Source: Sipunculus nudus
Lineage: Eukaryota > Annelida > Sipuncula > Golfingiida > Sipunculidae
Assembly: GCA_026874595.1 (NCBI GenBank)
Contig: CM049320.1
Coordinates: forward strand, 25,706,214 to 25,770,213
DNA length: 64,000 bases
Direction: 5' to 3'
Position numbers and translations under genes: made by a program
Notes under the pieces: model-generated
The model's input: only the letters and a program-made list of their open reading frames with translations
Told to the model about the DNA's origin: nothing
Database searches by the model: none
Part shown: in pieces, positions 603 to 60,500 of the stretch
Layout of the letters: each line of letters starts with the position of its first letter
Numbering within the stretch: position 1 is the first letter of the stretch

Positions 603-999
603 TGGGAAGAGATTCGCAAAAGGAAATTTTATCATCAGAATGGTAGTATATACTCATTTAACTGAAGCATCAAACAGATTAACCAACAGGCCAAGATTTA
701 GTCTGTATTTATATATCTCAAAAATAGAGAAAAAATGTGTAAACTTAAGAAACTAGAATACGGGTAGCCGACAAGTGACTACGTGTATCCGCCAAAATCA
801 GAACGGGTGGAACGGGTGAAGTGAGGCATGGATTGAGTGGCAAGGGGAAATAGAGTGAGGTATGTTGCATATTAGCATGGATGTCTGCAGCCTAAATGTG
901 TATGTAGGTTGTGCCACCTACCACAAATCCAGAAAGCTGTCCAAGTTGTACACATATGCGAAATTTTAGGCAGAAAAGTCAAACCACTAGATGTATATG

Positions 1000-3900
1000 A
1001 GTGATTTTATCCCAAGGCAGATGAACAGATGGACGCTGTGCATTAGTGGTTGCTGGTGGCACCACCGGTTTTGCCTATAATGAAGGGCTATGTGAGATCT
1101 CTACACATGCAAAATTTTGGCCAAATTGGTCAAACGGTTCCCAAGATATGAGCTTGGATGTCTGCAGAGTAAACCTGAATGTATGTGGTGCCTTCTGTCA
1201 TAAAATCAAGAAAGCTATCCAGGATGTATAAAGCTGCAAAATTTTAGGCAGATATGTCAAACCACTGCCGAGATATGAGTGATTTTATCCCACGGCAGAC
1301 AAACAGACAGATGCTGTGCCAAAATTGGTTGCAGGTACTAGGTGGCCCCTCCAGGTTTTGTATGATAAAGACCTATGTGAGATCTAAACACATGCACAAT
1401 TTTGGCCCAATCGGTCAAATGGTTCCTGAGATATGAGCTTGGATGTGTGCAGTGTTAACTAGAATGTAGGTGGCGCCACCTGTCATAAAATCAAGAAAGG
1501 CTTCAGGATGTATAAACCTGCAAAATTTTAGGCAGATATGTCAAACCACTGCCGAGATATGAGTGACATTATCCCACGGCAGACAAACAGAAGGACGCTG
1601 TGCAAAATTGGTTGCAGGTGGCGCCACAAGTTTTGCGTATGATAAAGAGCTATGTGGGATCTATATACATGCAAAATTTTGGCCCAATCGGTCAAACGAT
1701 TCCTGAGATATGAGCTTGGATGTCATCAGCGTGAACGTGAATGTAGGTGGTGCCACCTGTCATAAAATGAAGAAAGCTATCCAGGATGTATACGCATGCC
1801 GAATTTCAGGTGAATTAGTCAATTCACTGCAGAGATATGAGTGATTTTAACCCAACCCAAGGCAGACAAACAGATGGACACTGTGCAATCATGGTTACAG
1901 GTAGCGCCACCATTTTTTTGTGTATGTTATAAAGCTATCCAAGGGCTACATTTGTATTAATTTTATTTCCTGATCGGTCAAATGGTTCCCAAGTTATGAG
2001 CTTGGATGTCATCAGCGTGAACGTGAATGTAGGTGGTGCCACCTGTCATAAAATCAAGAAAGCTATCCAGGATGTATACGCATGCCGAATTTCAGGTGAA
2101 TTAGTCAATTCACTGCAGAGATATGATTGTTTTAACCCAAGGCAGATGAACAGATGGACGGTGTTCATAAGTGGTTGCAGGTGGCGCCATCATGTTTTGC
2201 TTATGATGAAGAGCTATGTGAGATCTATACACAAGCAAAATTTTGGCCCAATCGGTCAAACGGTTCCCGCGATATGAGCTTGGATGTCTGCAGAGTAAAC
2301 GTAAATGTAGGTGGCGCCACCTGTCATAAAATCAAGAAGGCTTTCCAGGATGTATAAACTTGCAAAATTTCAGGTGGATAAGTCAAACCACTTCTGAGAT
2401 ATGAGTGATTTTATCCCAAGGCAGATGAACAGATGGACGCTGTGCATTAGTGGTTGCTGGTGGCACCACCGGTTTTGCCTATAATGAAGAGCTATGTGAG
2501 ATCTCTACACATGCAAAATTTTGGCCAAATTGGTCAAACGGTTCCCAAGATATGAGCTTGGATGTCTGCAGAGTAAACCTGAATGTATGTGGTGCCTTCT
2601 GTCATAAAATCAAGAAAGCTATCCAGGATGTATAAAGCTGCAAAATTTTAGGCAGATATGTCAAACCACTGCCGAGATATGAGTGATTTTATCCCACGGC
2701 AGACAAACAGACAGATGCTGTGCCAAAATTGGTTGCAGGTACTAGGTGGCCCCTCCAGGTTTTGTATGATAAAGACCTATGTGAGATCTAAACACATGCA
2801 CAATTTTGGCCCAATCGGTCAAATGGTTCCTGAGATATGAGCTTGGATGTGTGCAGTGTTAACTAGAATGTAGGTGGCGCCACCTGTCATAAAATCAAGA
2901 AAGGCTTCAGGATGTATAAACCTGCAAAATTTTAGGCAGATATGTCAAACCACTGCCGAGATATGAGTGACATTATCCCACGGCAGACAAACAGAAGGAC
3001 GCTGTGCAAAATTGGTTGCAGGTGGCGCCACAAGTTTTGCGTATGATTAAGAGCTATGTGGGATCTATATACATGCAAAATTTTGGCCCAATCGGTCAAA
3101 CGATTCCTGAGATATGAGCTTGGATGTCATCAGCGTGAACGTGAATGTAGGTGGTGCCACCTGTCATAAAATCAAGAAAGCTATCCAGGATGTATACGCA
3201 TGCCGAATTTCAGGTGAATTAGTCAATTCACTGCAGAGATATGAGTGATTTTAACCCAACCCAAGGCAGACAAACAGATGGACACTGTGCAATCATGGTT
3301 ACAGGTAGCGCCACCATTTTTTTGTGTATGTTATAAAGCTATCCAAGGGCTACATTTGTATTAATTTTATTTCCTGATCGGTCAAATGGTTCCCAAGATA
3401 TGAGCTTGGATGTCATCAGCGTGAACGTGAATGTAGGTGGTGCCACCTGTCATAAAATCAAGAAAGCTATCCAGGATGTATACGCATGCCGAATTTCAGG
3501 TGAATTGGTCAATTCACTGCAGAGATATGATTGTTTTAACCCAAGGCAGATGAACAGATGGACGGTGTTCATAAGTGGTTGCATGTGGCGCCATCATGTT
3601 TTGCTTATGATGAAGAGCTATGTGAGATCTATACACAAGCAAAATTTTGGCCCAATCGGTCAAACGGTTCCCGCGATATGAGCTTGGATCTCTGCAGAGT
3701 AAACGTAAATGTAGGTGGCGCCACCTGTCATAAAATCAAGAAGGCTTTCCAGGATGTATAAACTTGCAAAATTTCAGGTGGATAAGTCAAACCACTTCTG
3801 AGATATGAGTGATTTTATCCCAAGGCAGATGAACAGATGGACGCTGTGCATTAGTGGTTGCTGGTGGCACCACCGGTTTTGCCTATAATGAAGAGCTATG

Positions 3901-4012
3901 TGAGATCTCTACACATGCAAAATTTTGGCCAAATTGGTCAAACGGTTCCCAAGATATGAGCTTGGATGTCTGCAGAGTAAACCTGAATGTATGTGGTGCC
4001 TTCTGTCATAAA
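1000..4012 (+). repeat. 1404-bp higher-order tandem duplication
   Basis: The block from about 1000 to 2404 is repeated at 2404-3808 and again in part at 3808-4012. Matching landmarks at 1046/2450/3854, 1254/2658 and 1996/3400 are each exactly 1404 bp apart. Only a handful of substitutions separate the copies, so this amplification is recent compared with the diverged short units inside it. Short open frames here are by-products of the repeat and show no protein family signature. Confidence 0.85.
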
Positions 4013-4693
4013 ATCGAGAAAGCTTTCAAGGATGTATAAACCTGCTAATTTTCAGGTTGATATGTCAAACCACTGCTGAGATATGAATGATTTTACGCCA
4101 AGGCAGATGAACAGATGGATGCTGTGTATAAATGGTTGCAGGTGGCGCCACCAGTTTTGCCTATGATGATGAAAGCTTTCAAGGATGTATAAACCTGCAA
4201 AATTTCAGGTGGATAAGTAGAACCACTGCTGAGATATGAGTGATAACGGTAATGTAGGTGGCGCCACCTGTCATAAAATCCAGAAAGCTATCTAGGATGT
4301 ATACGCATGCCAAATTTCAGGTGAATTAGTCAAACCACTGCAGAGATATGAGTGATTTTAACCCAAGGCAGATGAACAGATGGACGCTGTGCAAAAATGG
4401 TTGCAGGAGGCGCCACCGTTTTTAGTGTATGTTATACAGCTATCAAAGGGCTACATTTGTGCAAAATTTTTAGCCTGATCTGTCAAATGGTTCCCAAGAT
4501 ATGCTGGTTTATGTGTGGAAACAGACGCACAAATGGACGCTTGGCAGCGAGGAAAGGTCAAAGGTCAACCAAAAATGAGGATGCAGCAGTTCACATGTTA
4601 CCTGATGATAAACCCAATTCGCTTAAAATGCAAACCACGTTTTTTTCAAACAGTTGAAAGATATAGTTCCAATAATCTGGGAATTCTTCATCA

Positions 4694-8939: not shown

Positions 8940-30061
<21,122 letters not shown>

Positions 30062-36702: not shown

Positions 36703-36920
36703 GCGGGAGGGTTGCGGCTAGCCGCAGCCTCATAGAGTTAACTGGATGCTGTGCGCAGGAAGGCTGCGGGAGGATTGCGGCTAGCCGCAGTCTAATAGAG
36801 TTAACTGGATGCTGTGCGCAGGAAGGCTGCAGGAGGGTTGCGGCTAGCCGCAGTCTAATAGAGTTAACTGGATGCTGTGCGCAGGAAGGCTGCAGGAGGG
36901 TTGCGGCTAGCCGCAGTCTT
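36703..36920 (+). repeat. GCTGC-rich minisatellite cluster 2 (63-bp unit, ~3.5 copies)
   Basis: The unit contains GGAGGGTTGCGGCTAGCCGC, then AGTCTAATAGAGTTAACTGG and ATGCTGTGCGCAGGAAGGCT. The CTAGCCGCAG motifs at 36781, 36844 and 36907 are 63 bp apart. Copies are nearly identical and carry the 12-bp palindrome GCGGCTAGCCGC. Confidence 0.9.
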
Positions 36921-37440: not shown

Positions 37441-38095
37441 TAATTGGCCCCTGCTGCGGGAAAGTGTGCGAGAAGGCTGCGGGAAAGTGTGCGAGAAGCT
37501 GCAGAAAGTGTGCAAGGCTGCAGGAAGTGTGCGAGAAGGATGCGGGAAAGTGTGCAAGAAGGCTGCGGGAAAGTGTGCGAGAAGGCTGCAGGAAAGTGTG
37601 CGAGGCTGCGGGAAGTGTGCCAGAAGGCTGCGGGAAAGTGTGCGAGAAGGCTGCAGGAAAAGGGCTGCGGGAACATTGGTTACAGCAAGCCTGCAGCAAG
37701 GTTGCCGCAAACTAATTTGCATGGCAAATTGTGACCTTGCTGCAAGGTTGCTGCAAAGCTGCGGGAAAGTGTGCGAGAAGCTGCAGAAAGTGTGCAAGGC
37801 TGCAGGAAGTGTGCGAGAAGGCTGCGGGAAAGTGTGCAAGAAGGCTGCGGGAAAGTTTGCGAGAAGGCTGCGGGAAAGTGTGCGAGAAGCTGCAGGAAGT
37901 GTGCAAGGCTGCAGGAAGTGTGCGAGAAGGCTGCGGGAAAGTGTGTGAGAAGGCTGCAGGAAAAGGGCTGCGGGAACATTGGTTGCAGCAAGCCTGCAGC
38001 AAGGTTGCCGCAAACTAATTTGCATGGCAAATTGTGACCTTGCTGCAAGGTTGCTGCAAAGCTGCAGCAAGTTTGCAGCAACAGTGCGCGGCAAG
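37441..38095 (+). repeat. GCTGC-rich minisatellite cluster 3 (two ~290-bp higher-order units)
   Basis: Units of about 30 bp (GGCTGCGGGAAAGTGTGCGA and variants) are grouped into two ~290-bp blocks. Each ends with 'ctgcagcaaggttgccgcaa' and 'actaatttgcatggcaaatt'. Because units are often multiples of 3, five of six frames are open for 80-227 codons. No protein family is implied. Confidence 0.9.
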
Positions 38096-45438: not shown

Positions 45439-45538
45439 CTACCACACGACACATTTGTCTTTGGGGTTCATTTTTGATCCGTGTGGACATTTGAACTGCT
45501 GTGCAAACTCTTGGGAATTGGATAATGTTCCTATGACC
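45439..45538 (-). CDS. M13 peptidase last exon (CxxW terminus)
   Basis: 100 bp, acceptor TTTTTCAG, stop TAG at 45441-45439. [20 protein letters not shown] then [12 protein letters not shown]. The terminal CxxW is diagnostic of the family. Confidence 0.95.
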
Positions 45539-48500
45539 CTGAAAAAGTAAAAGAGTATAATGACATAAATGCAAACAAAGCACTGCAATTAATCATTATG
45601 TAACAGTAAAACTATGCTCTTTACACAGCGCTTTATCCATATGGCAACTACCTTTATCTTAAGCGCTGTTTGTTTTAACCTAGTATCCTGAATCTCTACA
45701 CCAAAGGAGAGCACTGTATTTTGGACCAATCAGATGAGACCTTATGCTGGAAGACAAATCAGTCTACCAGCCATGCGAGGAATACACAAAGCCAATTTTG
45801 TTCATTTCATTTTGAGTGACAGCTCATCGCCCCAGCGACCGTTTGAACAGGCCACAGGCTCAGAGAGAATTGCCCACATGTGGTTTCTGGGCGGAGTCTG
45901 ATACCTGCCGAGTGTTTGCTGACTTGCATTTGGTTGGCTGCTAATCACATCAGCAGTTTTTTTAGCAGACAGGCCCATGTGCACCATCTGGTGTTTAAGT
46001 GCATCATAAACGGTCAAAGCAGACAGCGGGAAAATCAGTAGCTTCTTTAGAAGCGCAAGATTTCTGCTGCCTCAGGAGCGTACAGTAAAAGAGATATTTT
46101 GGCTACAAAGTGCAGATTCAATTGTTGATCTCCTGCCTGACTTTATTTTCTCTAAAAATATTGTGTATTTGCATGCTTCATATTCACAAGGTTATAATTT
46201 CGAGATTTTCACTTTTTCAGAATTTTGCAAGAATTATTATTTCCTTTTTTTTATAAGATTAATTCAACATACACTCACATTAACTAACTATCTGAAGAGA
46301 AGCAAAGAAGATATTGAACTTATAATTATTCATCATCAGCAAATAACATATAAATGGTCTGATATTATTTATAATTTCAATGGTTTATTTACAAATCTGT
46401 TGTCCTTTATATATTATATCAATGCCCTTGCCTTCATGGGTTATACAAACATGGATAACACTCACCTGAATTTATTTGGACTATGGGGATCGTTAATGAT
46501 TGTCAGGTGGTCCGCCTGTTTTGTACTTGTAGTGCACCACACCTGTATAAAAGATGAAAATGTCAACATGGATGAATTAGTCTGACCGAACGTATTATTT
46601 TCACTTTTACCAAATGCAAGTTTCTCTGTTGCTTTGGTTGTGAATTTAACCACCAGATGGCAGCCACATCACCTGACACACCCAGCCACACAGGTTGTGC
46701 AAGACTTTGCCTGACTCGATGGTTTTGGATGGTGCATGAAATGCTACTTATGTCTGCCAAGCAGAAATGACAGTGCCTCCAGGTATAGAGCTGAATACAT
46801 GGTTTATGAAGAGAGATTTAAAATTTGCTGTTCTCTTGAACTAATGACCTGCAAATGTGCAAATAATCAAAGACCTATTCACGACTTTTTGTGTACAGGC
46901 TGAACTTCGTACAGAACAAGCCATGTTACTTTCAAATATAATCACCAAAAAATGAGTATATACATGGGTACTTGATTATGTGCAGTGAATATTATAAAAT
47001 AAACATTATATTCAATAACAGATGAGATCATTATAACATCCTACAACAAAACATTCTGGATGGGAACATCCTATCTACAGGGTGAAAAGAGATAGGAGGT
47101 TATCATTTTTTTTATATAATGATATAAAATTTATCACAATATTTCCTGATATTGTAATATCAGTATCTGCTGAGGGAATACATATAAAAATTGTCAGTAT
47201 TTCTGCCTTGTTTTTGGTAATACAAATATCAATATATTTTTGCTAGTATCATGATCACATTCATATAGAATTTCATGCAATTCATTAAAATAAATGTTAT
47301 CCTTGAAAAAAAAATTTTCTAAACACACAAAGACAATAATGATGCCATTATCTATAGGTAATAATCCTAGAAGAACATGTTTTTTACCCAAAATTGAGGA
47401 AAATAATGTATTGCATATCATGATATCAAGATAAAAGGGAAGCTAATGGTACAAAATTTTAACGCAGCTGTCAGATATTGTGACAATGATGGACAATCCC
47501 TGATACTGGTTATTGTCCCAGCCCTACTGCTGTACTTGGATGGAAATATACAAGCTCACCTGTGAAAAGGCAACAAAAAACAGCTGTCTGTGCGTGAGGT
47601 TGACTCCTGGTAACGGGAGCTCTCCCCCATGCTTCTCTAACCAGTCTTCATAAGCCTGCAACAAATCGTTATTAAAGATACATAAACATTATTCCTGTGG
47701 ATTGTAAGGGCTCCAGAATCCATTCAATTACATGTATCAATTCCTTACTTCAATTGATTCAATTGTCACTTTACAGTGAGTATTAAATTTCGGACTTTTT
47801 AAAAAATAAAATCCATTTTACCAAAATGGATGTTTAAGTCATTTTAGCAAAAAAAAAGGGAGCTCTCCCTTTGTTTTTCACAGTGAGCCATTACCTGATA
47901 TCCCAGAAATCACAAGAAATCTGTGAACTTCTTCTTTCAGCATTCAATATTTGATATTTCAACTTTACTACTTATGTGCAATCAAGCACCAGATCATGTT
48001 CATTCAAAACATAGATATTTTCTAAATAATCATTGAAGCAACTTACATAGTAGGCTGCTTTCAGACCTCCATTGTCTGCAATGTTCTCTCCAAGTGTTGT
48101 TATCCCATTCACCTATACAAAATAAAAAGTAGAAAACATACCTTAAACATGAGAGAGAAAGAGAGAAAGAGAAGACCCAAACAACAACAAAAAGAATACC
48201 AGAAAATATAGGCAGACAATACTGTGACAGGAAACCGGGGCTATGACATTAAATTCTTAACATAAAAAGAAATCTATAAAAAGAAAGTCAATGTAAAAAT
48301 AATACATATTTGCAAGGAGACATTATTATTATACGAGTTCAAAAAAAAAGAATTATAACACCATAATCAGCCTTTTTTATATGAATATCAAATGCAAGAA
48401 ATTTTGTGGTAAAAACAAAAGAATTAATAACTTTAGTATAGGTTTAAATATATGTCAAAATTGCATACTTTTCCTACCTTTTTTTTGAAGTCTGGAAAAC

Positions 48501-51500
48501 TTATGTTTGTATATTGTTCTACTTTTTTAATGTTGTATTGGAAAAGCAATAAACAGAGCAACACAAACCAATCATTTTGGGGATTGTATGTATTGATTAC
48601 AGTATTTTTTAAATACAATAAGAAATCAGTGATTTCACTATCTAGTGTTAGCTAATATTTAATTAATAGGTATTTGGACCTAAGTGAAAGCTCCTTAAAG
48701 GGACCTTGCAAACTCAGGGTGGGGCTATAAATAAATGTGCTACAGAAAAGGAATCTACTGTAATATGTGGTAGCCTTCAATGAGTTTCCATCAAAATGCC
48801 TTCTGCCTATCTGATTTTCATAAAATTTAGTTAAAACATTGGATTACAGAAATTACGCATCTCACTAATGAATTTATTTTCCAATATACATACAGTGTAA
48901 TATTTAAGATTAGGAATAACATTAATGAAAAAAATAACAATAAAGTAACCATATAACAAGTTTGAATATGAAATTATATTAGAAATCAAAATATCAGTAT
49001 GAGTCAGACAGTATCAACATAGCGTATAGGAAATTCAATCATATCAACAGCAATATTACAAGAGTGTTGACAAAATCATGGTCAAGGTAATTATTAAAGG
49101 AATCTCTAGCTGAAAGCGACAAAATGCTAGATAAATTAGAGTTTTGACCAGTTATTAAACAAACATATTCAAGAGAAATCTCTTCCATTAGAGTTAGTCA
49201 GATTAATGTTGAGGTTTGATGTCAATTCCTTCATGCAAGTCTGTATGGCTCAAATGAAATGTGACCATTTTCTCATGAATGCCTCTGGTGGGATTCTTAA
49301 CAGGGATCCACAGCTACAGAAACCGACCCTCTACCCATATGTCTACCCCTAATACTCACATGTTCTCCATTGAGGGTGAACTTTGAATACTGGTTCACCA
49401 TACATTTTGCTTGCTCCTGGAAGTTTTTCACTGAAGCCTCATTCCACCACGGTCGCAAGATTCCATTTTTGTCATATTTGCGACCTGTCAATAGACTTCA
49501 CCATAAACATCCTAAAATAATTAGAGGATTTTGGTGTGGTAAAAAAAAGCATTATTCTGCTGTTAACTTTGCCAATGCATGTACCCTTACCACCAAACTC
49601 TCTCTGCAAAAAGATTCTCACCTGGATGACCACTTCCTTATTGAACCCTGGCAGATCTATTTCTCCAAATTTCTGAAAACTGTTCAAGGACTGTCAATTG
49701 CATACATATAAAACCTGTGACTTGTAACATGAGAAAATTGTCTTGCCCAATTCCCTGGGAAAATTTCTTGCCATAAATTATTTTTGTATGTGCTCATATA
49801 CTCACCCTGGTCATCGAACCCATGTGTCAGCTCATGGCCCATGACGACTCCCATGGCACCAAAGTTCAGAGATCTGTTAACAAATGAGAGAAATATATTG
49901 AACAGTACCAGAATAACATAGGGTTAATGCTTATATAAAAGTATATCATTATATCATTTTAAACATCTCCTCATACTGATCCTTATCAATAACACAAACA
50001 AGAGCACTGAAAATGGTGCATAATACGCCCCTTGCATATCTTGTGTCTTCTGACCTCTTTTAATTTGGGTGAATTTTGCCAAGAATGTAATTCAGGTGAA
50101 AAACTCATTTCAGGTTAATATTCATAATGATCGAGTTTCATGAAAATCTATCAGATATTTGGTAAGTCATCCTGGCACTACCAATGTCTGGTGACACCTG
50201 ACCTAATTATATGCACAGATTTTGCTGGAAATCAAACTTATGTGAGATATTAAATTGGTTAAACTTTTTTTAATATCAATCATTTTCCTGATAAGTTATC
50301 GCAGTGACACAGCAAAGTAGCCTTAAATGTTAAAGCCACATTCATCTTAAGTATAATTAAGCCTCCCCAGTACGAAGGGGAGGCATACAGAGGTTGATCT
50401 ATATTCCTGCTTGGTAAAAATCTTTTATGGGTGTACCTAAGCTTTAAAGGACCCAATCACCTATCTGATCCTTATAAACTAAAGGTAATCCCAGAAAACG
50501 TGGATATCACCGCACACAGGCTGCTTGTTTTGTTTATATCAATGTGTTTATAATATGTGGGGGCCATCCAAAATAAAACAAATTCAATTAAGGGCATCTG
50601 GCAGTAAGTCAGATAAGACAGTGCTTTGCAAATGGCATTTTCAAACAAGTGAGATTTCTACCTCTGCATATATGCAACCTACCACATTATAGGTTAACTG
50701 TTTTTACCTAACCATTTGTCAAAAATGCTGTGTTTATAAACATGTTGTTTATAAACAATTTCATACTTCTTTTATGAAGGAATTATAAGTAAATTTCACA
50801 ACCAAAATTATCCTTAGACTATACACAAAGGAAACCAAAAATCACATAAATTCTTTTTCAAAAGGCAGGTGAATGGGCACCTTTAAGGTCCTATTTCTGT
50901 GCTAAATCTTCACTTTTTTTCTGTCCTTTTTTGTGTAATTTTCTGTTTGAGCAAGATCTCCAATCAGGCTGATTTTTCAAAAGCTGAATTGTGGGCACAC
51001 AGAGCAAGGTCATAGATATGTACCTAATATTTATTTTTGACCTTGACCTAATTCCCCAAGGTCATACACTTCATAACAGATCCCTCATTCTCACTCAGTT
51101 CCAATGGTCACTTGGTGATTGCAAACAAACATCTAGTTATATTCTTACACTTATATCATTATCAAACTCAATAATGTGAAAATATTTTAATTAAAACATC
51201 TAATATATATTATTTTAAATTAAATAAGATTTGATTAAGGGTATTAAGTTTGATGTAAACTCATTACCTTTCATAATTTGGCAGAACATACTTACTTGGG
51301 ATAATTTCTATCATAAAACGGTGCTTGTAATATTCCAGCAGGGAAGACGATCTCATTTTTTGTTGGCGTGTAGTAGGCATTCACTGTCATAGGAGTCATA
51401 CTCCAGCTAAAAGAGAAAATATGAGTAATTATACTGAATAAGCTATACTGAATATTATATTAAGTTTATAATATCAACTTTATGAAATATAATATATAAA

Positions 51501-54500
51501 TATACACATATATATAAGGATGAATTAAAAAAAATGTCACACAGTCATATAGCATAAACACTGAAAGATAAATATAGTCCTTAAGGTGTTCTATTGCAGT
51601 GAATAAATTAAGAGAGATTTTAGTCATTTGGAAAATTATGTACAGTTAAAATATTGGCTTGTTTTGCTTCCAAATTATAATTGTCCAAATGGCAGAACAA
51701 AATGAAATATGAAAGAATTTTTTTAGAATTATCTGTTTTTGATGTCAGTTTCTGACTCTATAGATATCAGACAGTTGTGACCTTGCAATATTAAGACCAG
51801 TTTGTCTATTTCATGATACAAAGCTGACCTTGACTTGTTTTGGGGTTTCCTCAGTTTGTCTATTTCATGATACAAAGCTGACCTTGACTTGTCTTGGGGT
51901 TTCCTCAGTTTGTCTATTTTATGATACAAAGCTGACCTTGACTTGTTTTGGGGTTTCCTCAGTTTGTCTATTTCATGATACAAAGCTGACCTTGTCTTGT
52001 CTTGGGGTTTCCTCAGTTTGTCTATTTTATGATACATAGCTGACCTTGACTTGTCTGAGGGTTTTCCTCAGTTTGTCTATTTAATGATCCATAGCTGACC
52101 TTGACTTGTCTGGGGTTTTTCCTCAGTTTGTCCATTTTTTTATACAAAGCTGACCTTGACTTGTATGGGGGTTTCCTCAGTTTGTCTATTTTTTTATACA
52201 AAGCTGACCTTGACTTGTCTTGGGGTTTCCTCAGTTTGTCTATTTATGATACAAAGCTGACCTTGCATGACTTGACTGGGGGTTTCCTCAGTTTGTCTAT
52301 TTTATGATACATAGCTGACCTTGACTTCTCTGGGGTTTTTCCTCAGTTTGTCTATTTTATGATACATAGCTGACCTTGACTTGTCTGGGGTTTTTCCTCA
52401 GTTGGTCTATTTTATGATACATAGCTGACCTTGACTTGTCTGGGGGTTTCCTCAGTTTGTCTATTTTATGATCCATATAGCCAACCTTGACTTGTCTGGG
52501 GGTTTTCCTCAGTTTGTCTACTTTATGATACATATAGCTGACCTTGACTTGTCTGGGGGTTTTCCTCAGTTTGTCTATTTTATGATCCATATAGCTGACC
52601 TTGACTTGTCTGGGGGTTTCCTTAGTTTGTCTATTTTATGATTCATATAGCTGACCTTGACTTGTCTTGGGGTTTCCCCAGTTTGTCTACTTTATGATAC
52701 ATATAGCCGACCTTGACTTGTCTGGGGGTTTTCCTCAGTTTGTCTATTTTATGATTCATATAGCTGACCTTGACTTGTCTGGGGGTTTTCCTCAGTTTGT
52801 CTGTTTTATGATTCATATAGCTGATCTTGACTTGTCAGGGGGTTTTCCTCAGTTTGTCTATTTTATGATACATAGCTGACCTTGACTTGTCTGGGGGTTT
52901 CCTCAGTTTGTCTATTTTATGATCCATATAGCCAACCTTGACTTGTCTGGGGGTTTTCCTCAGTTTGTCTACTTTATGATACATATAGCTGACCTTGACT
53001 TGTCTGGGGGTTTTCCTCAGTTTGTCTATTTTATGATCCATATAGCTGACCTTGACTTGTCTGGGGGTTTCCTGAGTTTGTCTATTTTATGATTCATATA
53101 GCTGACCTTGACTTGTCTTGGGGTTTCCCCAGTTTGTCTACTTTATGATACATATAGCCGACCTTGACTTGTCTGGGGGTTTTCCTCAGTTTGTCTATTT
53201 TATGATTCATATAGCTGACCTTGACTTGTCTGGGGGTTTTCCTCAGTTTGTCTGTTTTATGATTCATATAGCTGATCTTGACTTGTCAGGGGGTTTTCCT
53301 CAGTTTGTGTATTTTATGATACATATAGCTGACCTTGACTTGTCTGGGGGTTTTCCTCAGTTTGTCTATTTTATGATTCATATAGCTGACCTTGACTTGT
53401 CTGGGGGTTTCCCTCAGTTTGTCTATTTTATGATTCATATAGCTGATCTTGACTTGTCTGGGGGTTTTCCTCAATTTGTCTATTTTATGATACATAGCTG
53501 ACCTTGACTTGACTGTGGTTAATCCTCTGTTGTCTATTTTATGATTCATATAGCTGACCTTGACCTGTCTGGGGGTTTTCCTCAGTTTGTCTATTTTATG
53601 ATACATATAGTTGACCTTAACTTGTCTGGGGTTTTCCTCAGTTTGTCTATTTTATGATCCATATAGCTGACCTTGACTTGTCTGGGGGTTTTCCTCAGTT
53701 TGTCTATTTTATGATACATATCTGACCTTGACTTGTCTGGGGGTTTTCCTCAGTTTGTCTATTTTATGATCCATATAGCTGACCTTGACTTGTCTGGATG
53801 TTTTCCTCAGTTTGTCTATTTTATGATACATAGCTGATCTTGACTTGTCTGGGGGTTTCCTCAGTTTGTCTATTTTATGATACTTATAGCCAACCTTGAC
53901 TTGTCTGGGGGTTTTCCTCAGTTTGTCTACTTTATGATACATATAGCTGACCTTGACTTGTCTGGGGGTTTTCCTCAGTTTGTCTATTTTATGATCCATA
54001 TAGCTGACCTTGACTTGTCTGGTGGTTTCCTCAGTTTGTCTATTTTATGATTCATATAGCTGACCTTGACTTGTCTTGGGGTTTCCCAAGTTTGTCTACT
54101 TTATGATACATATAGCCGACCTTGACTTGTCTGGGGGTTTTCCTCAGTTTGTCTATTTTATGATACATATAGCTGACCTTGACTTGTCTGGGGGTTTTCC
54201 TCAGTTTGTCTATTTTATGATCCATATAGCTGACCTTGACTTGTCTGGGGGTTTTCCTCAGTTTGTCTATTTTATGATACATATCTGACCTTGACTTGTC
54301 TGGGGGTTTTCCTCAGTTTGTCTATTTTATGATACATATAGCTGACCTTGACTTGTCTGGGGGTTTTCCTCAGTTTGTGTATTTTATGATACATATAGCT
54401 GACCTTGACTTGTCTGGGGGTTTCCCTCAGTTTGTCTATTTTATGATTCATATAGCTGACCTTGACTTGTCTGGGGGTTTCCTCAGTTTGTTTATTTTAT

Positions 54501-57500
54501 GATACATATAGCCAACCTTGAGTTGTCTGGGGGTTTTCCTCAATTTGTCTTCTTTATGATACATATAGCTGACCTTGACTTGTCTGGGGGTTTTCCTCAG
54601 TTTGTCTATTTTATGATCCATATAGCTGACCTTGACTTGTCTGGGGGTTTTCCTCAGTTTGTCCTTTTTATGATACATATAGCTGACCTTGACTTGTCTG
54701 GGGGTTTTCCTCAGTTTGTCTATTTTATGATACATATAGTTGACCTTGACTTGTCTGGGGGTTTTCCTCAGTTTGTCTACTTTATGATACATATAACTGA
54801 CCTTGACTTGTCTAGGGGTTTCCTCAGTTTGTCTATTTTATGATTCATATAGCTGACCTTGACTTGTCTGGGGGTTTTCCTCAGTTTGTCCTTTTTATGA
54901 TACATATAGCTGACCTTGACTTGTCTGGGGGTTTTCCTCAGTTTGTCCTTTTTATGATACATATAGCTGACCTTGACTTGAATGGGGGTTTTCCTCAGTT
55001 TGTCTATTTTATGATACATATAGTTGACCTTGACTTGTCTGGGGGTTTTCCTCAGTTTGTCTATTTTATGATACATTTAGCTGACCTTGACTTGTCTGGG
55101 GGTTTCCCTCAGTTTGTCTATTTTATGATTCATATAGCTGATCTTGACTTGTCTGGGGGTTTTCCTCAATTTGTCTATTTAATGATACATAGCTGACCTT
55201 GACTTGACTGTGGTTCATCCTCTGATGTCTATTTTATGATTCAAATAGCTGACCTTGACCTGTCTTGGGGTTTTCCTCAGTTTGTCTATTTTATGATACA
55301 TATAGTTGACCTTAACTTGTCTGGGGGTTTTCCTCAGTTTGTCTATTTTATGATCCATATAGCTGACCTTGACTTGTCTGGGGGTTTTCCTCAGTTTGTC
55401 TATTTTATGATACATATCTGACCTTGACTTGTCTGGGGGTTTTCCTCAGTTTGTCTATTTTATGATACATATAGCTGACCTTGACCTGTCTAGGGGTTTT
55501 CCTCAGTTTGTCTATTTTATGATACATAGCTGATCTTGACTTGTCTGGGGGTTTCCTCAGTTTGTCTATTTTATGATACATATAGCCAACCTTGACTTGT
55601 CTGGGGGTTTTCCTCGGTTTGTCTACTTTATGATACATATAGCTGACCTTGACTTGTCTGGGGGTTTTCCTCAGTTTGTCTATTTTATGATCCATATAGC
55701 TGACCTTGACTTGTCTGGGGGTTTCCTCAATTTGTCTATTTTATGATCCATATAGCTGACCTTGACTTGTCTGGGGGTTTTCCTCAGTTTGTCTATTTTA
55801 TGATACATATCTGACCTTGACTTGTCTGGGGGTTTTCTTCAGTTTGTCTATTATATGATACATATAGCTGACCTTGACTTGTCTGGGGGTTTTCCTCAGT
55901 TTGTCTATTTTATGATACATATAGCTGACCTTGACTTGTCTGGCGGTTTTCCTCAGTTTGTCTGTTTTATGATTCATATAGCTGATCTTAACTTGTGAGG
56001 GGGTTTTCCTCAGTTTGTGTATTTTATGATACATATAGCTGACCTTGACTTGTTTGGGGGTTTTCCTCAGTTTGTCTATTTTATGATTCATATAGCTGAC
56101 CTTGACTTGTCTGGGGGTTTCCTCAGTTTGTCTATTTTATGATACATATAGCCAACCTTGACTTGTCTGGGGGTTTTCCTCAATTTGTCTACTTTATGAT
56201 ACATATAGCTGACCTTGACTTGTCTGGGGGTTTTCCTCAGTTTGTCTATTTTATGATCCATATAGCTGACCTTGACTTGTCTGGGGGTTTCCTTAGTTTG
56301 TCTATTTTATGATTCATATAGCTGACCTTGACTTGTCTTGGGGTTTCCCCAGTTTGTCTATTTTTTTATACATATAGCCGACCTTGACTTGTCTGGGGGT
56401 TTTCCTCAGTTTGTCTATTTTATGATACATATAGTTGACCTTGACTTGTCTGGGGGTTTTCCTCAGTTTGTCTACTTAATGATACATATAACTGACATTG
56501 ACTTGTCTAGGGGTTTCCTCAGTTTGTCTATTTTATGATTCATATAGCTGACCTTGACTTGTCTGGGGGTTTTCCTCAGTTTGTCTTCTTTATGATACAT
56601 ATCTGACCTTGACTTGTCTGGGGGTTTTCCTCAGTTTGTCTTTTTTATGATACATATAGCTGACCTTGACTTGACTGGGGGTTTTCCTCAGTTTGTCTAT
56701 TTTATGATACATATAGTTGACCTTGACTTGTCTGGGGGTTTTCCTCAGTTTGTGTATTTTATGATACATATAGCTGACCTTGATTTGTCTGGGGGTTTTC
56801 CTCAGTTTGTCTGTTTTATGATTCATATAGCTGATCTTGACTTGTCAGGGGGTTTTCCTCAGTTTGTTTATTTTATGATACATATAGCTGACCTTGACTT
56901 GTCTGGGGGTTTTCCTCAGTTTGTCTATTTTATGATTCATATAGCTGACCTTGACTTGTCTGGGGGTTTCCCTCAGTTTGTCTATTTTACGATTCATATA
57001 GCTGATCTTGACTTGTCTGGGGGTTTTCCTCAATTTGTCTATTTTATGATACATAGCTGACCTTGACTTGACTGTGGTTAATCCTCTGTTGTCTATTTTA
57101 TGATTCATATAGCTGACCTTGACCTGTCTGGGGGTTTTCCTCAATTTTGTCTCTTTTATGATTCATATAGCTAATCTCGACTTGTCAGGGGGTTTTCCTC
57201 AGTTTGTCTTTTTTATGATACATAGCTGACCTTGACTTGAATGTGGTTTATCCTCTGTTGTCTATTTTATGATTCATATAGCTGATCTTGACTTGTCTGG
57301 GGGTTTCCTCAGTTTGTCTGTTTCATGATACATGACTGACCATGACTTGTCTGGGGGTTTCCTCAGTTTGTCTATTTTATGATTCATATAGCTGATCTTG
57401 ACTTGTCTGGGGGTTTCCTCAGTTTGTCTGTTTCATGATACATGACTGACCATGACTTGTCTGGGGGTTTCCTCAGTTTGTCTATTTTATGATCTATGAC

Positions 57501-60500
57501 TGACCTTGACTTGTCTGGGGGTTTCCTCAGTTTGTCTATGTTCTGTTTAACCACATACTTCATGTTTCTCACATTGTTAAGGAAGTATTCATCTGGGTTT
57601 ACTTCAAACTGAAAAGACAAGCAAATTATCACACAATCAATATTGTTTATAGTTATATATGTAATATATGTTTCATGAAAATTCGGCAACTTTATTTGTA
57701 AAAAATGCCACACAGGATTTTACACTTGTAAATATTTATAAAACAAAATAATGCTAAATTCATGCAAAACTCCATATGTCTCCCCTTTCTATACCCCCCC
57801 CCCCCCCCCATTCCAAATCTGAGGAATAAAATATGCACTACTTCAAAAGTTATCATGTTTAAAAAAATCATTAATTTCCATAGATTTGACCTGAATGATC
57901 AATTTGAAGGTAACAAGTTTGAAAATCCAATATCTCAGTTAAGTTTTATTCCCTCAAAATCTGTGCATACTAAATGAAGTCAGAGGTCACCAAACTTTGG
58001 TGGCACCTTGAATGCATGCTCACCAAAAATCTTATAGATTTTCATGAAACTCATTATAAATAGTACTGATGCAGTTTCTGACTTGAATTAATTATTTAAC
58101 AGGTCAGAGTTCATAAGATGTATGACAGTTACATTATGCAATCTTGTTGTTTTATTTACTGTATCACTTTTGAATGTAATCCTTTGGAATTGGTACTAAT
58201 TAATCTTAAAAATAAATGGAGGGTGATATAAACAAGGGACCTGTGGGTCAAGGCACTCAGCTGAAATTGATTATGAGAATATTTTTATAATGTTCAGACC
58301 AAATCCCAGTCAGGAATCTGACCTTTCCAAACCTTGATCAGGATCTGGTCCATCCCAAATCCTGATTCAGACTTGTACCATGTGATCTTGACCTTTGATC
58401 TTATTGGTTTGTCTTGTATCAATCAAGTTTGAAACCAATATGTTAACATTATATATATATATTACCTCCACTCACCCTTCCACACACACACACACATTCG
58501 TAAAATAAATAACATCTGTGTTGCACAGATTCAGAACCAAATGCATGCATTTTAGCTGCAATTCATCAGCATTTGTAGAACTTTACAAAACTGTGATATG
58601 TTATTTTTAATGACTACAGTGGAGTGCCGTTCATCCAAACACTGTTTATCTGTGAAATCGTTTATCTGCAATTAAAACTGGAGAACCAAAATTATGACCA
58701 TTTATCCGTAATTTTGAAAATCTGGAAATATAAAAATAAACTTATTCAACAGGATGAACTGATAATGGCTCGTGTACTTTCTTCAAGTCCTTACTAATTA
58801 TAAATGCCTCACCGGTTCGTTTCTGCAGGTGTGACAACGCCTAATTACCCAAGTTGTACACACGCAGCAAATCCTTCGCTGGGGCTTGAACTCATTTGAG
58901 CAGTTATCGGTGTCCCCTAATTAACCTTGTGTCCTGCAATGTTGAGTTGTTCACACCTGCAATGCATCTGGCCAGAGCGAGCAGATATGTGCTGATAATG
59001 TCGGACTCTGATATGCTCGAACTTGTACTCATCTGAGCAGTTGAACAATGCAGGCAAATCTATCTTCTATAGAAGCTATACCATGACACGCAAGTTCATT
59101 CACAATTTATCAAATCTTCACCACAACAACACAGCACTCAAGTTTCATGTCAGATGGAGTCGGGGTCTCGTAAGCACAAACGCCATGTCTTATTACTTGA
59201 AGAAAAGCTCAGAATTCTGGAGATACTTGATCGAGGCACTAAGGCAGCTGAGCTGGCCAGAGAGTTCAATGTTGGCAGATCTGCCATTAATGACATCAAG
59301 AACAGTGGTCAGAAGCTAAAGGATTTCAAGGGCCAGATGCCAGACAGGCATGTTTCCAAGAGACGAGAGACGATGCGCATGGTGTCTGATGAAAAACTGG
59401 ATGCTGCCATATACACATGGTTTCTGCAGGAACAGTCCACAGGCAGCCCAATCTCCGGTCCAATCCTGATGGAAAAGGCAGCGATGTACAACAAGTCGAT
59501 GCATGGCTCTGACAGCTTCAAGTGGGTGGCTCAAGGAAAGTCACAGCATCCGACAGCTTGAGATTCAGGGAGAGGCCTTGTCAACAGACACCAGTAACAT
59601 TGACGAGTTCCAATTCCAAGTGTGTGAATTGCAAGAATGGGAAGGTTCGAGAAACTGTCAAGTGTAGAAGGCTGACAAAACAGGTCTCTACTGGAAGGTT
59701 TAGAGTGACAATACCCTAGCTGATGCTTCAGAGAAATGTGCTCCTGGACATAATTTGTCAAAAGAGCAGATTACTAGTCTCTTGTGCACCAACGCAACTG
59801 GTGAACACAAAGTGCCCCCCTGGTGACTGGGAAGTAAACTAAACCTAGGTGTTTCAAGCATGGGAAAATGGACTCCCTGCCTGTTGCGTATCAGGCTCAG
59901 AAAAATGTGTGGATGAGCCATCAGCTCTTCATGGATTGGTTTCACCAGGAATTTGTCCTGTCCGTCCGTCAGTATGCCAGGGAGAGTCTGAAGCAGACTC
60001 ACGTGCCAGCACGTGCATTATTTCTTGTGGACAACTGCCCCACCCATCCCACTGAAGATGAACTGCAGACTAGTGACGGATAATATGGTGTATCTTCCTG
60101 CCGAAGAACTGCACCAGCAAGATCCAGCACTCTGATGCTAGCATCACAGAATGTACAAAACGATATTATCATAAACGCCTGCTGTCATCCTTGCTTGCAG
60201 ATTAAGTCGAAAACAGCTTGTCTGTCATAGAACAGATGGGCGGTTTCAACTTGCATGATGCCATCAACCTGTTAGGTGGTGCCTGGAATGACCTGAGACA
60301 GTCTACAATCCACAAGTGCTGGAAGAATTCCCTTTTTCTGGAGACTAAATCTCCTGCTGGTGCTCAGCCCCCAGCTGATGTGGATGAGGTGGAATCACCG
60401 ACAGACATTCAGATCAATAGCTCATTTGCCAAGGTGGTGGACTCGGACTACAGTGAACTGATAGTTGCTGACTGGCTCCACTGTGATGGTGATCTTCCAA

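Follow-up and report, generated by a model that had tools for sequence, protein, structure and literature searches.

An endothelin-converting-enzyme-like (ECE-like) peptidase gene of Sipunculus nudus carries, directly behind one of its exons, about 100 tandem copies of that exon's own splice junction. The gene lies on the minus strand of a 64,000-nucleotide stretch (contig CM049320.1 of assembly GCA_026874595.1, positions 25,706,214 to 25,770,213; hereafter the window), and the copies form a minisatellite that takes up most of the following intron. Comparison with homologous sequences gives good support to the direction of origin, in which the exon would be the source and the minisatellite its product. 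The array is most probably a tolerated, neutral splice-junction minisatellite that would have arisen by ordinary repeat expansion.

The array and its source junction

The junction and the array are made up of the following parts, numbered from the first letter of the window; a slash in a donor marks the splice boundary.

57505 to 57608, minus strand: source exon of 104 nt, with a TTTTCAG acceptor ahead and the donor AAG/GTCAGT behind; it encodes 34 residues plus two bases
57505 to 57539, minus strand: exonic part of the source unit, 35 nt, encoding most of a 12-residue stretch
57486 to 57504, minus strand: intronic part of the source unit, 19 nt, with the true donor GT at 57504-57503 (from the unit split)
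51798 to 57539, minus strand: the array from end to end, with 102 full units plus the partial one of 12 bp (Tandem Repeats Finder and cyclic alignment)
51798 to 51809, minus strand: terminal 12-bp partial unit ATAGACAAACTG, identical to the first 12 bases of the source unit, which are exonic
51407 to 51797, minus strand: remainder of the intron beyond the array, 391 nt (read from the sequence)
51296 to 51406, minus strand: next exon, whose first base completes the split codon, followed by 36 residues plus two bases; its end is set by the donor CAA/GTAAGT

Tandem Repeats Finder reports the array at 51798-57539 with a period of 57, 102.2 copies and 90% matches. Splitting it by cyclic alignment gave the 102 full units, the source unit being counted among them, and the partial unit at the far end. 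Most units are 57 bp long (59 units), and the others measure 54 bp (17), 56 bp (16), 55 bp (9) or 58 bp (1). Unit 1 (57539-57486) is the true exon/intron junction itself, so the first-pass annotation, which had described 35 nt of exon end joined to 19 nt of intron and repeated about 100 times, fits it exactly. The true donor lies directly after 57505 and the next exon begins at 51406, giving an intron of 6098 nt, 5707 nt of which are array and 391 nt are not. Head-to-tail units of 54-57 bp at one locus fall within the range used for minisatellites, about 10-100 bp per unit.

In searches of the window and of the assembly, the repeat had this one place. A 37-nt core of the unit, with at most one mismatch, occurs 20 times in the window, always within the array, and not once in any of 100 shuffles. 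When the repeat was searched against the 1.43-Gb assembly (153 contigs; very common words are skipped, so that repeat counts are lower bounds), there were 102 matches, all in this array, which was the single candidate region with no second locus. A genome-wide satellite, centromeric or dispersed, was therefore rejected, as arrays at several loci were not found. A 501-base query over 51290-51790, at the far flank, matched itself and three other places in the genome, each over 50-62 bases. A degenerate unit past the far end was also considered and rejected, because the alignment of the flank to the unit was no better than that of shuffles (p 0.10 and 0.14). That the array is translated into a repeat protein was likewise rejected: peptides of 129 and 126 aa, each from a different strand, had no protein match at E <=0.001 among 6741 and at least 7989 candidates. 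RNA families gave no match in the window at the gathering score.

Direction of origin

The proposal that a coding splice junction was amplified, with the exon as its source, agrees with what is seen where the array is absent. The stretch encoded by the 35-nt block aligns without a gap in 11 of 11 homologues, chosen from the 120 listed of 7953 matches. Five alignments to PDB sequences (ECE-1, chain 9eyg and three neprilysin entries) also run ungapped through the block. The same genome holds a paralogue, L011, with a 104-nt exon that ends in NIDKLNKTVDRS, as read from splice-site consensus. The 34 residues of this exon align with those of the source exon without a gap and are 38% identical. It is followed by an intron of 1108 nt at the same position and in the same phase (phase 2), ahead of a conserved W. 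In this intron Tandem Repeats Finder gave only a minor 19-bp repeat, and the core of the array unit was not found in L011. The homologous exon end without an array means that the exon block exists independently of the array. The first-pass annotation held that the direction would be reversed if relatives lacking the array also lacked the block; where this was looked at, at the protein level in the homologues and in paralogue L011 of the same genome, a homologous block is present. Creation of the intron itself by duplication of an AGGT segment was rejected as well, since L011, as read from its splice sites, shares the intron in position and phase and has no array there.

Paralogue L011 has a tandem array of a different kind at 2984-3204, with a 48-bp unit and at least 4.6 copies, running to the end of the examined stretch.

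Unit variation and internal order

Beyond the source unit, two parts of the array can be told apart by their length forms.

52356 to 56985, minus strand: interior units 11-92, mainly of the derived 57-bp form, which has an extra A and two more bases (cyclic alignment)
51810 to 52355, minus strand: distal edge units 93-102, mainly 54-55 bp (cyclic alignment)

With the edge defined as units 2-6 and 92-102, limits that were chosen after the units had been inspected, a length below 57 bp is found in 15 of the 16 units at the edges, compared to 26 of 85 interior units. This bears out the earlier description of shorter edge units. The "outward-to-inward homogenisation" that was proposed along with it is a loose wording for what is seen, a derived 57-bp form that runs through the interior and relics of the source length that stand at both ends. 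Differences from the interior consensus follow the same course, with means of 5.7 for units 1-10 and 5.2 for units 93-102, compared to 2.2-2.9 for the four blocks into which units 11-92 were divided. This profile is the pattern of interior homogenisation with edge relics.

The derived form also differs from the exon in kind. An extra base (69 A and 8 G) is present in 77 of the 102 units; the exon and the 24 other units have a gap in this column. Such a base would put the exon out of frame, which means that this unit form did not serve as the template of the exon.

Order is visible at a larger scale too. For example, units 76-83 and units 84-91 differ by 2 changes in total, and the likeness between units 30 apart exceeds that in all 1000 shuffles of the unit order. 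A strongly altered unit type, beginning ACAACAGAGGAT..., occurs four times, in units 6, 9, 42 and 72 (starts 57265, 57096, 55232 and 53537). The spacings of 3, 33 and 30 units mark block duplications. Over the array, duplications of blocks can be seen at steps of 8 and 30 units.

Proposed explanation

The array could be explained as follows. A stretch straddling the 3' end of the exon and the start of the intron would have been duplicated in tandem, probably because short direct repeats allowed slippage or unequal exchange; ATAGACAAACTG, 12 bases long, is present at both array ends. Unequal crossing-over and gene conversion may then have raised the copies to about 102, carrying the 57-bp form across the interior and leaving source-length relics at both ends. 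The intron would have grown in this way from roughly 0.4 to 6.1 kb. The gene presumably tolerates the array because the true donor comes first, outscores nearly all of the copies and closes the normal 104-nt exon. We infer the duplication mechanism, the earlier length of the intron and the continued use of the first donor; the source junction, the homologous junction without an array and the difference between interior and edge are observed in the sequence.

Donor-like copies

The first-pass annotation had also expected about 100 sequences resembling 5' splice sites between the true donor and the next acceptor, and the count comes close to this: of 101 extra copies, 86 read AAG/GT, 3 have another GT and 12 have lost the GT. 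The commonest form, AAG/GTCAGC (64 of 102 units), would pair with U1 RNA at -5.4 kcal/mol, compared to -6.5 for the true donor. Sites at or below -5.4 kcal/mol have a density of 14.8 per kb within the array, compared to 6.6 per kb over the remaining gene region, a difference of about 2.2-fold. By a donor score built on donor frequencies, the array has 11.5 sites per kb that are as good as the typical copy or better, and the gene region outside it has 1.6. By the same score, the level of the true donor is reached by 2 sites in the array and 13 elsewhere in the region. The two in the array are the true donor and, by sequence, unit 49, the sole copy equal to it. The donor columns show no better conservation than the other columns (pi 0.085 vs 0.070; exonic columns 0.069, intronic columns 0.079). 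Donor columns as variable as the rest fit the expectation without selection to keep donors. The effects that the first-pass annotation proposed for these sites, namely capture of U1, slower splicing and additional isoforms, are thus putative, in contrast to the origin of the array, for which its proposal is supported.

The copies nearest the true donor are a separate matter.

57266 to 57485, minus strand: units 2-5, with the donors ATG/GT, AAG/AT, ATG/GT and AAG/AT, all damaged (unit split)
57384 to 57386, minus strand: first in-frame stop (TGA) on the exon extension, in unit 3 (translation)

The first intact AAG/GT copy lies 274 nt downstream, and its use would lengthen the exon to 378 nt. 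An exon extended past unit 3 would truncate the protein at the stop at 57386-57384. The donors ahead of this stop are therefore just two, that of unit 2, which is damaged, and that of unit 3, which is dead. When the order of units was placed in all 101 circular positions, a damaged run at units 2-5 was matched by one, the observed one, by a statistic chosen post hoc. As a pattern in the sequence, the run may be called suggestive. The four units form a single dimer in two copies, units 2-3 and units 4-5.

Alternative explanations

The damaged run leads to the alternative that the array is seen by the U1 small nuclear ribonucleoprotein (U1 snRNP), the copies competing with the true donor or forming a platform for U1 and the copies within pairing reach of the upstream acceptor having been disarmed by selection. 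Besides the run, in which units 2-5 all lack AAG/GT, damaged copies make up 7 of the first 12, compared to 8 among the 89 that follow. In the last 10 units the four donor-core columns are unchanged, while the other columns of these units differ at 10.8%, and the donor score is enriched in the array as described above. These counts have to be set against a statistic that is post hoc, a run that amounts to one dimer seen twice and edge units that are more diverged in general. Within units 2-5 the departure from the interior is larger for the four-column window starting at column 42 than for the donor core, and about as large for windows at columns 13-16. The enrichment in U1 pairing energy is just 2.2-fold, donor columns overall are no better conserved than others, and the copies are weak as donors because they mostly have C at +3 and +6. 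On balance, this alternative is unlikely. Its fuller form is quite unlikely, namely that selection pruned the near copies, while the roughly 86 farther ones would bind U1 and tune splicing or premature polyadenylation of the transcript, with the length of the array acting as a dial. If it were true that nearby copies are pruned, the pruning distance would measure the reach of a competing donor. One could also consider the array as regulatory DNA, a cluster of dozens of putative factor sites amplified from the junction. The junction holds TCAAGGTCA, which resembles a monomer site of NR5A/ERR, and the decamer GGGRNNYYCC, which resembles kappa-B, both judged by consensus motifs. The former occurs 73 times in the array and twice in the rest of the window, and the latter 95 times (both strands) and 4 times; per unit, they are found in 73 and 83 of 102. 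Binding of rel/NF-kappa B is reported for the HRAS1 minisatellite (PMC3618361). Both motifs, however, are already in the single source junction, and copying alone explains their numbers, which makes a regulatory role highly improbable.

The reverse direction, in which the end of the exon was captured from a pre-existing satellite, would account for the close match of array units to the exon, which over the exonic block extends to identity in units 26, 36, 66, 83 and 91. It is almost certainly wrong: the encoded block is family-wide, with a homologue in the paralogue that has no array, and the genome search gave no further locus of the repeat. An artefact of assembly, in the array or in its length, is very unlikely as well. 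The units differ from one another at a mean of 5.5 of 57 columns and keep a consistent internal order; when searched against the genome, the far flank gave a single full-length match and the exon a single close one.

Several observations weigh against a neutral array derived from the exon, which remains the preferred explanation. Four damaged copies stand beside the true donor, and neutrality does not predict such a run. The 12-bp repeat at the array ends could also remain from a deletion at the far end. The gene model of L011 comes from reading splice sites, and the search program aligned the query through another open frame, the upstream part of which is 27% identical to the source exon over 33 residues (38% for the spliced exon). 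The likeness of units 30 apart, taken over interior units only, falls within the range of the shuffled minima (3.38 vs a lowest of 3.25). A FastTree tree of the units is poorly resolved (14 of 71 nodes at 0.9 or above) and does not place the exon beside its neighbouring units. By count, the exon is nearest to units 26 and 49, from which it differs in 4 columns, and not to unit 2, from which it differs in 8.

The host gene and other repeats

The assignment of the host gene to the ECE-like M13 peptidases rests on a match to PF01431, the HExxH and ENxxD motifs and a C-terminal CxVW. The Pfam match was given by the two exons flanking the array when joined, with the matched stretch within the next exon (51296 to 51406). 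The same two joined exons matched 14 distinct PDB sequences, including ECE-1, neprilysin and PepO, in alignments that span both exons. A peptide joined from nine exons matched ECE homologues of several animals, molluscs, annelids and a brachiopod among them, with identities of up to about 70% among the 120 listed of 7953.

45442 to 49872, minus strand: stretch holding the other peptidase exons farther downstream, which include a 13-residue motif part and the C-terminal CVVW (read from the sequence)

A tandem repeat within coding sequence is found in the same gene family. In the predicted ECE1 protein of Lamellibrachia satsuma (P0001), an active-site stretch, KFG(S/I)...(D/N)DQG, is repeated four times in frame; by comparison with the window, it belongs to the next exon along. 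The window itself holds other tandem repeats. Two arrays of a 278-bp unit, at 869-4423 (12.7 copies) and 24717-25495 (2.8 copies), have consensus sequences that start alike. A 63-bp repeat lies at 36706-36919, and 23-bp repeats at 37453-38065 come in two blocks that form a 303-bp duplication.

Comparison with known systems

Among the closest known relatives is IFI6, a gene in which a minisatellite provides multiple splice donors. That minisatellite is said to lie at an exon/intron junction, to have a short repeat and to contribute donors that are used. In the array described here too, the units bear splice donors, and a donor-like unit stands at a real exon/intron junction. It is unlike the IFI6 case, with its reportedly short repeat and used donors, in having a unit of 54-57 bp and 102 copies, the use of which as donors is putative. 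A paper on yeast cites the IFI6 case in its introduction when it speaks of minisatellites that interfere with splicing.

Tandem duplication has also been linked to the gain of introns. In the Rogers model, with ATP2A1 as an example, a segment bearing AGGT is duplicated and the new intron spans several duplicates (PMC4974935); AGGT repeats with introns lying across them are described in fission yeast. The source unit here likewise contains AGGT, within TCAAGGTCA. In contrast to that model, the intron would have existed before the array, given its position and phase in L011, and was lengthened by it. For the birth of minisatellites, Haber and Louis 1998 (Genomics 48:132), as described in PMC3389668, proposed seeding by flanking direct repeats of 5-10 bp. 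The array resembles that outline in ending on the same bases as it starts; it differs in the putative seed, which could reach 12 bp, and its ancestral state is a reconstruction. The HRAS1 minisatellite is also non-coding and near a gene, with binding of rel/NF-kappa B reported (PMC3618361). Its position is 3' of the gene and its unit is GC-rich and 28 bp long; for the array described here, the likeness is a match to consensus motifs. Minisatellites in the first intron are described for earthworm metallothionein genes (PMC12783039).

The array matters in two ways. With about 100 near-copies directly behind the exon, it offers a natural test of donor choice, and it suggests that coding sequence can give rise to a minisatellite without loss of the reading frame of the gene itself. 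Among the titles and abstract openings of the literature on exon-derived satellites and intronic donor arrays, no same case was recognised, which is not a claim of absence from print. The array is set apart from its known relatives by the 35 nt of conserved coding sequence in each unit, by its copy number and by an intron older than the repeat that now fills it.

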